A stretch of DNA of 25,794 nt, from IMG/VR virus record IMGVR_UViG_3300046028_000570, positions 1 to 25,794 of that record, one strand, 5' to 3'. Each line of letters opens with the position of its first letter. The first letter of the stretch is position 1. A model generated the notes under the pieces. It saw only the letters and a program-made list of their open reading frames with translations, had not been told where the DNA came from and made no database searches. The DNA is from a virus. Below are positions 22,633 through 25,729 of this stretch, in pieces. A program made the position numbers and the translations under genes.

Positions 22633-22850
22633 GCTGCATTGTCCTCCAGTTCGATGAGTTTGTCCAAATAGTGCCTGGCTTTCTTCAGGTCATTGATACC
22701 ACCTTTGTCGCGCCAGCGGGAAACGTACTTGACGATGTTGCCTTCAAAGTAGCCGAGCTGGTTGGCCGCGATGAAGTCCCAAGGTTGGATGTTTTTTTCC
22801 TTGTAATGATCGCCGCCGATCTGGGTTTGGTTTGCTGTGGAATTGGTCAT
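22629..22850 (-). CDS. DUF3310 protein (73 aa)
   Basis: Matches the DUF3310 signature: IGGDHYKEKNIQPWDFIAANQLGYFEGNIVKYVSRWRDKGG followed by LKKARHYLDKLIEL. DUF3310 proteins are common in phages and are sometimes labelled nucleotide kinases without a visible kinase P-loop; none is visible here. The length is normal for a minimal DUF3310 domain. It is coupled at both ends by ATGA overlaps, to the winged-helix gene upstream and the small terminase downstream. That places it in the packaging operon rather than with nucleotide-metabolism genes. Confidence 0.88.
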   Translation of the reverse strand: MTNSTANQTQIGGDHYKEKNIQPWDFIAANQLGYFEGNIVKYVSRWRDKGGINDLKKARHYLDKLIELEDNAA

Positions 22851-23404: not shown

Positions 23405-23436
23405 TGATAATTCCTTTGGTTGTTCGTTCATCTAAT

Positions 23437-23461
23437 TTATGGCCCCCCTGCGGGGCCATAA
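23437..23461. repeat. Ten-pair GC-rich hairpin in the leader of the winged-helix/terminase operon
   Basis: Perfect inverted repeat ttatggcccc / ggggccataa around a five-base loop (cctgc). Neither strand has a U tract after it, so it is not a classic terminator. Read on the minus strand it sits about 33 bases before the chosen ATG (23404), in the 5' leader. It could stabilise the mRNA, attenuate transcription, or be a protein-binding site. Confidence 0.6.
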
Positions 23462-23491
23462 GTATTAGATTAACTTACGTTAATCTTATAC

Positions 23492-23500
23492 TTATACAGA
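23492..23500 (+). promoter_or_regulatory. DnaA-box-like 9-mer (one mismatch)
   Basis: Reads TTATACAGA, differing from the DnaA-box consensus TTATNCACA at one position. It overlaps the ttatact/agtataa dyad. It is listed because a perfect box and a second near-match lie within 250 bases; alone it would be expected by chance in AT-rich DNA. Confidence 0.35.
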
Positions 23501-23647
23501 GTATAAATTTTCTACAACTCTACATTGATAGATTTCTACACTACTGCAAATCCATTGTACACTACAACTCTCTGGATTTGATGATAAGTAAAATTTTTTT
23601 ATATGAAAGGTAAGAATTAAATTCTTTTTGTGTTGCTTTTCTTTCAT

Positions 23648-23656
23648 AGTGTATAA
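23648..23656 (-). promoter_or_regulatory. DnaA-box-like 9-mer (one mismatch)
   Basis: On the minus strand it reads TTATACACT, eight of nine matches to TTATNCACA. It is part of a segment gtgtataaattttt that resembles agtataaatttt at 23500-23511. Confidence 0.35.
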
Positions 23657-23692
23657 ATTTTTAGTTGCAAAAAACAAACATCCTTGAGGCTT

Positions 23693-25729
23693 TCAGTCCC
23701 TGTTGGAAAGGATGTGCATCGAAGTTGTCCATAGGTTATCCACAACAATCCATCCATGCTGCGCTGCTTGAATCATGTCTGCCCCAAGGAGTTGGCCGAT
23801 CATTTGTCCGTCTGGTTTGCACATGGATTCGGCCTTGGATTGCTTGAATCCATCATTGCTGATTAAGAAATCCAAGAGGGCAGACCGCGACAAATAGGGC
23901 TGTCCACCGTAGGTTTCGCAGTGAGATTTACACCATGCACGTTCAAACCGTTTGGTGCTGGCGGTGAATTCGGATTCTTTCTTTGGGGTTGTTGTGGCAT
24001 TTGAATCCTCATCTTGAATGGCAACGCAAGTGGTTGCAGCGCCGCCAAACTTAGTCGTTCCCATCTCGATGATCTCCAGTTTGAAATAGATGGTATCGCC
24101 TTTGCTTGGAAGTTCACGCTGTTTTGTAACAGTGACGGAGCGCGTGCCTTCTTTCTCTGTGACCTCAATTTCGGTATCAATGTGCGCTCGGATGCCTGAC
24201 CAGCCGCGTGCTCCTTTGGCTGCGTCTTTGCCATTGTGGTGAATAATCATGAGAGCCGCTCCGGTGGATTGCGCCACCTGGTCAAAACGTGCCATGACTG
24301 GCCCCATGTCCTCACCGCTGTTCTCATTGGCGCCTGCGCTCATTCTTGCCAGTGTGTCACCGATGATTAAACGAACCCGCTTTCCTTTGATCTGTTCAAT
24401 AGCTCTGACTAGCTCGATGACGTCTTGAGCGTCTTGGTCGCCGTTGTAGAAGTTCATGGGAACTGGCACCATGGCTAAGTTTTCAAGAGTGCAGCCGTGG
24501 TACTTTTTGATGGCCTGCATACGTGATCGAATGCTTGATGGTGATTCGCTGGCCAGATAAACCACCAGGCCGGGATCGGTCTTTCGTCCGTAACAGTCGG
24601 TGCCGGTTGCGATTGCTGTGGCCACCGAAAGCGCCCAGAATGTCTTTCCTGAGTTGCTGTCGCCGTAGACCACGACCGAGCTTCCGATGGTCATGAGGCC
24701 TTCAACAAGTTCGTCTGGTGCCTCGTATTCGCTGCCAAGTTGGTCACCAAAGACCACCTTGAGCTTGTCCATGACTTCTGAGCCTGTCTGCTGAATCAAT
24801 AGGCCTGCCAGGTCGTGCCCTGCCTGGGCATAGTCGTTGGCGTCGCCTTCTATGGATGGCATGACCATGCGGGCGCCGTATTTGGCGCTGGCCTGCTCTG
24901 CGTATCGTTGGCCGACGCCTGATTTGTCATTGTCTGCCACGATCACGATGTCCTGGGTTGCGCCGTATATTTCCCGGAGCGTACCAGTTACCGGAACTAG
25001 GTTGCTGGCGCTGTAAGCCACGACGACGGGCCTGTCGGTGGTTTCGTGGATGGTGGCTGCGGTTGCAAAGCCTTCGGCGACGTACAGGGTGCCGAGCTCG
25101 TCTGTGGTGCCTAGCATCCAAAACTTGCCGCCTGTCTGGCCGCCTGGGTGGTAGAGCTTACCGCCTTCGTGGTCGATGTATTGAAGGCTGGCTAGGTTGC
25201 CGTCTTGGTCGTAGAGCGGAACAATTAGCCTGCCGTCGCCGGTAATTCGTGCGCCGTGTGGGCTAATACCTTTGCGTGCCAAATAGGGGTGATCTGGAAG
25301 TGCGGCCTGTGCGCCTGCCCAAATTTTCTCCACCGTATCGCTGGCCACCTGGTGCTGTCGCTCCAGTGCTGCATCGCGTAGGGCTTTGGCCTCGCTAAGG
25401 CGCCGGGCATGGGACATTTCTTCGGCTTGGCTGAGTTTGCGTCCTACGTCTGCGCGCCAGGTCACTTCCATTCCTGCGCGCCAGCAGCCAAACCGACCGG
25501 CTGGAATGCCATCACCAAACACCAAATACCAGCCGGGCTTGTCGCCGTGACCTGGTGAGCCTTTAGTGCCTGACTTGAAACGATGGATTTTCCCGTCCAT
25601 GTGTATCTCGTTTGGTGGCTCAAGGCCTGCTGCGCGCATGGCGTCAATGAGCTGCGCCTCTGGCGGTGCCACCCGCTTCTCTTGCGCCGGTGCCCAAGGC
25701 CCATTCAATACGGTAGTGAGGTCAGCCAT
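23693..25729 (-). CDS. Fused Toprim primase / RecA-like replicative helicase (678 aa)
   Basis: Primes and unwinds phage DNA. Residues about 40-90 (GKIHRFKSGTKG ... GWYLVFGDGIPAGRFGCWRAG) resemble the N-terminal part of TraC/phage-type primases; a charged helix follows (100-130). The Toprim core has LYVAEGFATA with E219 and VADND with D266/D268. The second half is an AAA_25/RepA-like RecA fold: Walker A GDSNSGKT at 356-363, Walker B RLIIGDTLAR with D458, and IIHHNGKD (495-502). A C-terminal helical domain of about 80 residues may bind DNA. AAGGTG precedes ATG 25729. It lies upstream of the candidate origin and regulatory region. Confidence 0.9.
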   Translation of the reverse strand: MADLTTVLNGPWAPAQEKRVAPPEAQLIDAMRAAGLEPPNEIHMDGKIHRFKSGTKGSPGHGDKPGWYLVFGDGIPAGRFGCWRAGMEVTWRADVGRKLSQAEEMSHARRLSEAKALRDAALERQHQVASDTVEKIWAGAQAALPDHPYLARKGISPHGARITGDGRLIVPLYDQDGNLASLQYIDHEGGKLYHPGGQTGGKFWMLGTTDELGTLYVAEGFATAATIHETTDRPVVVAYSASNLVPVTGTLREIYGATQDIVIVADNDKSGVGQRYAEQASAKYGARMVMPSIEGDANDYAQAGHDLAGLLIQQTGSEVMDKLKVVFGDQLGSEYEAPDELVEGLMTIGSSVVVYGDSNSGKTFWALSVATAIATGTDCYGRKTDPGLVVYLASESPSSIRSRMQAIKKYHGCTLENLAMVPVPMNFYNGDQDAQDVIELVRAIEQIKGKRVRLIIGDTLARMSAGANENSGEDMGPVMARFDQVAQSTGAALMIIHHNGKDAAKGARGWSGIRAHIDTEIEVTEKEGTRSVTVTKQRELPSKGDTIYFKLEIIEMGTTKFGGAATTCVAIQDEDSNATTTPKKESEFTASTKRFERAWCKSHCETYGGQPYLSRSALLDFLISNDGFKQSKAESMCKPDGQMIGQLLGADMIQAAQHGWIVVDNLWTTSMHILSNRD
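23736..23744 (+). promoter_or_regulatory. Perfect DnaA-box 9-mer TTATCCACA
   Basis: Exact match to the strong DnaA-box sequence TTATCCACA. It lies inside the 3' end of the primase-helicase gene, about 40 bases from its stop and next to the AT-rich repeat region. It could bind host DnaA at a phage origin. Codons here spell DNLWTT, so a coding coincidence is possible. Confidence 0.45.

Follow-up and report, generated by a model that had tools for sequence, protein, structure and literature searches.

A repeat-bearing gap exchanged together with the tail of a phage primase-helicase: a candidate replication origin

The question

The replication origins of most environmental tailed phages are unknown. 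The locus studied here lies in a virus record of 25,794 bases (IMG/VR IMGVR_UViG_3300046028_000570, positions 1 to 25,794; the whole record is called 'the window' below), where a sequence-only reading had placed a candidate origin in the non-coding DNA behind a primase-helicase gene. Is this an origin, and if so, what reads it? In our view, the phage replication origin is probably made up of the primase-helicase gene's 3' end and the adjoining gap, as a cassette that brings its own reader. The location first proposed is supported by cassette exchange, by class-specific iterons and by an enrichment of DnaA boxes in relatives, but several of the features then cited in its favor are not.

Gene setting

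The window has head genes of the P22 type (Pfam P22_portal and P22_CoatProtein), and from the coat protein through the primase every gene is on the minus strand. Pfam places Toprim_3 (E=1.1e-12) and AAA_25 (E=3.2e-32) in one and the same protein, the primase-helicase. The gap behind its gene is the largest between credible ORFs of the window, as had been claimed. The start of the winged-helix gene is at 23407 rather than 23431, because relatives carry a stop codon between these two ATGs. A DNA similarity search of the 4.3-kb region against named phages gave no match. The terminator-like hairpin at the end of the primase-helicase gene was not detected by a consensus terminator scan, because its loop exceeds the length that the scan allows. 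All features are collected in Table 1.

Table 1. Features of the candidate origin region, in window coordinates
Feature	Position	Strand	Remarks
Primase-helicase gene, 678 aa	23693..25729	-	Pfam and PHROGs: Toprim_3 (residues 215-303), AAA_25 helicase (325-503), C-terminal domain
Coding part of exchanged C-terminal domain	23693..23979	-	About residues 584-678; predicted winged helix, proposed origin-binding domain
Perfect DnaA box TTATCCACA	23736..23744	+	Inside primase-helicase gene, codons for VVDN
Degenerate second box TTGTCCATA	23725..23733	+	11 bp from the perfect box
Terminator-like hairpin ACATCCTT/AAGGATGT	23678..23715	-	Then T-rich stretch; end of primase-helicase gene; absent from relatives
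AT-rich gap, 285 bp	23408..23692		30% GC; proposed origin core
Outlying repeat copy CATAGTGTATAAATTTT	23645..23661	+	Orientation opposite to the three phased copies; conserved in L082-L084 and L092
Phased repeat copy 1, GTAGTGT	23559..23565	-	Gap position 128
Phased repeat copy 2, GTAGTGT	23538..23544	-	21 bp on, gap position 149
Phased repeat copy 3, GTAGAGT	23517..23523	-	21 bp on, gap position 170; kept in all W-type relatives
P1, palindrome ATAAGTATAAGATTAAC-GTAA-GTTAATCTAATACTTAT	23458..23495	-	17-nt arms
P2, GC-rich hairpin TTATGGCCCC-GCAGG-GGGGCCATAA	23437..23461	-
Third arm ATAAATTAGATGAAC	23426..23440	-	Near repeat of P1 first arm, could pair with P1 second arm; in all W-type relatives
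Winged-helix protein, 186 aa	22847..23407	-	Weak HTH_36 match; PHROGs replication-initiation matches, N-terminus only; candidate second initiator or regulator

Three classes of gap among the relatives

Relatives were collected with four queries: the primase-helicase (80 loci), the winged-helix protein (3 loci), the palindrome (one further true relative, L092) and the C-terminal domain, which brought in L112 and L113 along with 29 loci of greater distance. Classes were set by what follows the primase stop, namely W (the window, L082-L084, L092, L112 and L113), C (L002-L081) and D (L114-L142); the sampling of W is thin, its seven sequences representing about four lineages. The W-type gap, common to the window and six relatives, combines 21-22-bp iterons, a palindrome and a GC hairpin with DnaA boxes in the gene end. 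In C-type gaps the repeats are GCCCCT (median of 8 copies, 74 loci), and D-type gaps carry 13 to 16 copies of [AG]GGACA/AAGACA plus a long palindrome. In the nearest named phages with a whole primase-helicase (37-43% identity), arrays also stand directly behind the gene: GGTTCA in Alteromonas phage XX1924, GGTACA in Idiomarinaceae phage 1N2-2 and GGGACA in Salicola phage CGphi29. Class-specific arrays exceed all shuffles in the C type, the D type and these three phages, and the class repeat words are enriched 63- to 572-fold in the gap compared to the genome. The general layout is thus a primase-helicase stop, then class-specific repeats with palindromes, then often a DnaA box before the next gene.

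Two structural observations were made along the way. In C-type gaps (L034:6052-6230 and others), inverted GCCCCT/AGGGGC arrays make up a long hairpin-forming element, whose outer arms vary yet stay complementary (CCAGTT/AACTGG, CCCGTT/AACGGG, CCTGT/ACAGG) around centers such as CCTATAGG. In the D type (L117:1118-1370 and others), a palindrome, AAGACATACTCTTTAGAGTATGTCTT, lies between GGACA arrays; its center varies by locus and is still self-complementary.

Cumulative GC skew, which had been put forward as a check, was computed on the relatives' records. The detrended minimum falls inside the gap of the W-type record G001, but skew fails to mark the gap in four C-type records, and in divergent genomes it is confounded by gene orientation. 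Being supportive for G001 alone, it was given little weight.

The gap is exchanged together with the tail of the primase-helicase

A cassette of ~1.1 kb is made up of the final ~95 primase-helicase residues, the gap of 285 bp and the winged-helix gene. On both of its sides, the DNA of the window shares 89-91% identity with that of a relative whose gap is unrelated. Compared to the C-type L002, the primase-helicase is 85 to 100% identical up to residue 578 and 32% identical thereafter; DNA similarity between the two ends at 23979 and resumes at 22648. With L023 and L073 it resumes at 22837-22839, within the DUF3310 gene that directly follows the winged-helix gene. Compared to L082, of the same gap type as the window, the protein is 44 to 68% identical up to residue 450 and 81% in the C-terminus. 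The C-terminus of the window is closest to those of L082 and L092, and is 71-81% identical to those of W-type relatives overall.

On the tree of C-termini, gap type requires a single change, whereas the W type alone needs four on the N-terminal tree. AU tests rejected a W clade for the N-terminus (p=0.0004) and a grouping of the window with L002 for the C-terminus (p=0.0005), these groups having been named before the trees and after the identities were seen. No mismatch between C-terminal class and gap repeat word was found in 110 loci; the sole deviating case, L069, has a diverged C-terminus plus a diverged repeat region. At the level of sequence, the comparison of more than 100 relatives shows that the gap and the predicted DNA-binding tail of the primase-helicase are exchanged between phages as one unit. 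Physical linkage by itself would keep neighbors together. It gives no reason, however, to expect a change of word along with the tail, a constant place for the array, or an enrichment of host-initiator boxes at that place. When adjacent repeats are exchanged along with a DNA-binding tail and their word changes too, the pair has the look of an initiator and its origin.

Elsewhere in the protein, L092 presents a distinct pattern (primase-helicase at L092:999-3014): the middle, which corresponds to the helicase, is 10 to 31% identical to the family, and the ends are 59 to 83% and 71 to 74% identical. The helicase domain appears to have been exchanged likewise in this phage.

Candidate readers of the gap

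A structural model of the C-terminal domain (pLDDT 87) has the winged-helix order of elements, and its structural matches are mostly winged-helix DNA-binding proteins, with Z about 6-7. Foldseek returned zero hits at E<=0.001 with this model, and no PDB chain gave a significant sequence match; the P4 alpha protein is absent from the list of fold matches, which is not evidence of absence. The model supports the winged-helix fold class, and no particular family.

The small winged-helix gene is found only with W-type gaps, and is the next gene in all W-type loci read. No relatives of its product were detected in a scan of bacterial genomes, or in CGphi29, 1N2-2 and XX1924; among named phages, only Bacteroides phage proteins matched (33-37% identity, at most 90 residues), and searches of PDB sequences gave only generic HTH hits above E=0.05. 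An AlphaFold model built on four sequences was poor (pLDDT 52) and was set aside. The C-terminal half of the protein has a conserved C-x2-C-x5-C-x2-H, possibly a zinc site.

A palindrome and hairpins next to the winged-helix gene

The short dyads first listed for the gap exist, but the list omitted the strongest element, the 17+17-nt palindrome P1 beside the 10-bp GC-rich hairpin P2. The region of the two has a fold z of -5.2. In the alignment with L082-L084, the 38-nt palindrome block has zero differences among the window, L082 and L084, the neighboring winged-helix proteins being 79% identical in the same comparison. One G-C pair of P1 has become A-T in L092, with both arms changed; in L112/L113 the inner arms are rewritten and pairing is kept around the same GTAA loop, as read by hand and from folds because MAFFT misaligned the 3' half of the hairpin region there. 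P2 differs in sequence in each lineage (L082, L092, L112) yet stays paired. Such paired changes favor a pairing within one strand, be it RNA or DNA. Rfam gave no family at gathering score in the window and seven relatives. A search with the palindrome pattern returned 11 viral contigs, of which four are true relatives, including the new L092; the other seven look like chance, several of the matches being inside unrelated genes.

These structures could mean that the gap serves chiefly to control the winged-helix gene and the packaging operon that follows it. It would then contain a promoter, operators bound by the winged-helix protein, and an RNA leader whose elements P1, P2 and third arm can adopt alternative pairings. 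P1 and P2 are directly upstream of the winged-helix start codon, their pairing survives changes on both sides, the GTAA loop that is kept is a GNRA on the sense strand, the winged-helix gene accompanies every W-type gap, and packaging genes follow. Such a region, however, leaves unexplained why the gap is swapped together with the C-terminal domain of the protein encoded upstream, why denser arrays occupy the same place in C- and D-type gaps that have no winged-helix gene, and why DnaA boxes gather there. We therefore consider it unlikely that control is the main role of the gap. The two functions can coexist, and a regulatory RNA leader for the winged-helix gene may well form part of the W-type gap.

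Phased repeats in the W-type gap

Two direct repeats had been reported in the gap and were found again: a 10-base repeat, CTACAACTCT, at 23512 and 23562 (50 bp apart), and 8-base TACACTAC words 21 bp apart within 23534-23565. In the gap of the window, words repeated exactly show no excess over shuffles (42/300 and 96/300 were equally high). Repeats of the form GTAKWGT follow each other at 21-bp steps in the window, and at the same places in L082 and L092 with one or two degenerate copies. In L112/L113 the steps are of 22 bp (gap positions 77, 99, 121 and 148, 170), a periodicity that none of 200 shuffles reached. For the window alone, 2 of 200 shuffles were as high at lag 21/22, and 57 of 200 when the best of all lags was taken; the period is only suggestive from this sequence by itself. 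The word GTAG[TA]GT, picked after the gaps were seen, has three occurrences in the window and four in G001, a record of 34.9 kb; all of them fall in the gap.

DnaA boxes

The perfect DnaA box TTATCCACA of the sequence-only reading is present, but it sits within the coding frame of the primase-helicase, whose stop codon ends at 23693, so that the non-coding stretch is devoid of a perfect box. The two weaker boxes, TTATACAGA at 23492 on the plus strand and TTATACACT at 23648-23656 on the minus strand, were found as well; their single mismatch, however, holds only relative to the relaxed TTATNCACA, and they differ from TTATCCACA at two positions. Sites at one mismatch to TTATCCACA number 4 in the window, compared to 4.0 expected. 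For TTATNCACA, 3 of the 10 sites of the window fall within the 259 bp of the proposed region, a count reached by 13 of 1000 base-shuffled copies of the region, which makes the cluster mildly unusual.

All seven W-type sequences have at least one perfect box in the last 52 nt of the primase gene. Pairs of boxes 11 bp apart, each with a perfect box as one member, occur in the window, L082-L084 and L092; the counterpart of the degenerate box is TTGTCCACA in L092 and TTATCCACA in L082-L084. The box codons are conserved in the protein too, so this conservation is not independent of protein constraint, which may explain part of it. In the C type, 49 of 74 loci have a perfect box within -100 to +300 of the primase stop, most often at +129 to +132; these loci are mutually related and do not amount to 49 independent events. 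The density of perfect boxes is 1.66 per kb beside the primase stop and 0.035 per kb elsewhere in the same fetched loci, a ~47-fold difference; an equal density elsewhere, named at the outset as grounds for rejecting the origin, is thus not seen in relatives. In the D type, 16 of 29 loci have a perfect box at +233 to +250, and one box was found elsewhere in 210 kb. No perfect box lies beside the gene in CGphi29, XX1924 and 1N2-2. Conservation in relatives, taken as a whole, holds for the perfect box and the 21-bp-phased repeats, but neither the pair of weak boxes nor the 10-base repeat with its 50-bp spacing is kept more than loosely.

Boxes and repeats might be due to chance, or be by-products of an AT-rich gap and conserved codons: one-mismatch boxes are at their expected frequency in the window, exact gap repeats do not beat shuffles, and the perfect box is in conserved codons. 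We find this very improbable given that the palindrome and hairpin are kept through paired changes, that the phased repeats of L112/L113 exceed every shuffle, that boxes are enriched in non-coding C- and D-type gaps, and that the gap is exchanged together with the C-terminal domain; as far as sequence can tell, conservation strongly disfavors it. A classical DnaA-dependent origin, in which host DnaA alone opens the gap without a phage initiator, is equally hard to credit. Boxes do occur in all W-type sequences and most C-type loci, but they number just one or two strong ones, the repeat word tracks the C-terminal type, and iterons remain where no perfect box lies near the stop, namely in 13 of 29 D-type loci, about a third of C-type loci and the three named phages. 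The suggestion that host DnaA replaces an initiator of the phage's own is thus not supported; host DnaA looks like a common but non-universal helper, and the best candidates for initiator are the C-terminal winged helix of the primase-helicase and, in the W subtype, the neighboring winged-helix protein.

Finally, the gap lies just upstream of terminase genes in the window and in C- and D-type loci, but a packaging (pac) site is extremely unlikely because terminase genes do not track gap type: the small and large terminase genes of the window are 91% DNA-identical to those of L002, which has another gap type, and the record of L082, of the same gap type, has no match to the large terminase of the window.

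A possible course of initiation

Gap structure, conservation, cassette exchange, the agreement of tail and word, and box enrichment in relatives are observed; binding, opening, priming, the use of DnaA and origin function itself are what we infer. On the origin reading, the C-terminal winged helix of the primase-helicase would bind the phased short repeats in the AT-rich gap, and in the W subtype the small winged-helix protein would probably bind them too. Opening of the duplex would be assisted by host DnaA on one or two boxes within the end of the gene. The helicase domain could then enter and the primase begin synthesis; the palindrome or the hairpin, after becoming single-stranded, may be the starting place.

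A more elaborate version has two layers: the exchangeable primase-helicase tail and the W-only winged-helix protein would read one cassette, and P1, P2 and the third arm would act as a single-strand or RNA switch, one of its pairing states serving priming and the other turning on the late genes and that of the winged-helix protein. We regard this as speculative and rather doubtful; if true, one short exchangeable element would set both the start of replication and the early-to-late switch.

If the origin reading is correct, an origin could be assigned in more than 100 contigs of uncultured phages with a single rule, namely to search the DNA following the Toprim/AAA_25 primase-helicase gene for the repeat word that belongs to its C-terminal type. 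The repeated exchange of a reader domain with its binding region would constitute a natural experiment in DNA-recognition specificity, and bears on the ways in which phages may escape competition between origins or attack directed at the origin. A direct test of what host DnaA does in these phages also comes within reach.

Comparison with known systems

No description of origins in these phages was found in the open-access literature, subscription papers being outside the scope of the search. CGphi29 (NC_020844.1), a distant relative with the same primase layout, is the type example of the TasH/TIGR locus (PMC12045711). Like the window, CGphi29, 1N2-2 and XX1924 have repeat arrays directly behind the primase-helicase gene, but with other repeat words and without a perfect DnaA box beside it.

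The alpha protein of satellite phage P4 unites a Toprim primase, a helicase and a C-terminal winged helix that binds origin repeats (PMC4234260). The same parts are found here in a single protein, the winged helix being predicted and its binding to repeats proposed. The present helicase, however, is of the AAA_25 (RecA/RepA-like) type, the origin would lie directly behind the gene, DnaA boxes are present, the W type has an extra winged-helix protein, and the C-terminal domain has no significant sequence match to any solved structure. ORF904 of plasmid pRN1 and the replication protein of phage BIP-1 also combine primase, helicase and C-terminal winged helix, with structured origin DNA directly downstream of their own gene, in which structure is kept while sequence changes; they differ by a Prim/pol primase, an SF3 helicase and a single large stem-loop without iterons, where phased or dense iterons are found here (PMC4234260). 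The oriV of RSF1010 (RepA, RepB', RepC) offers iterons, hairpins as priming sites, and a hexameric helicase with a separate initiator, a possible parallel to the primase-helicase and the small winged-helix protein; it relies on three separate proteins and a different primase, and the parallel of P1/P2 with its ssi sites is putative (PMC4234260). In the RepA_N/origin pairs of PLE satellites, a DNA-binding domain and an iteron origin vary and are exchanged as a module while the remainder of the protein stays; that domain is N-terminal, the origin lies in a separate non-coding region, and the pairing was demonstrated experimentally, whereas the present case is computational (PMC8263062).

By analogy, P4 alpha and pRN1/BIP-1 would be the nearest in working principle. 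The present case combines features of P4 alpha, pRN1/BIP-1 and PLE in a Toprim/AAA_25 family of P22-headed and other phages, and adds class-specific words, DnaA boxes and, in the W type, an extra winged-helix protein.
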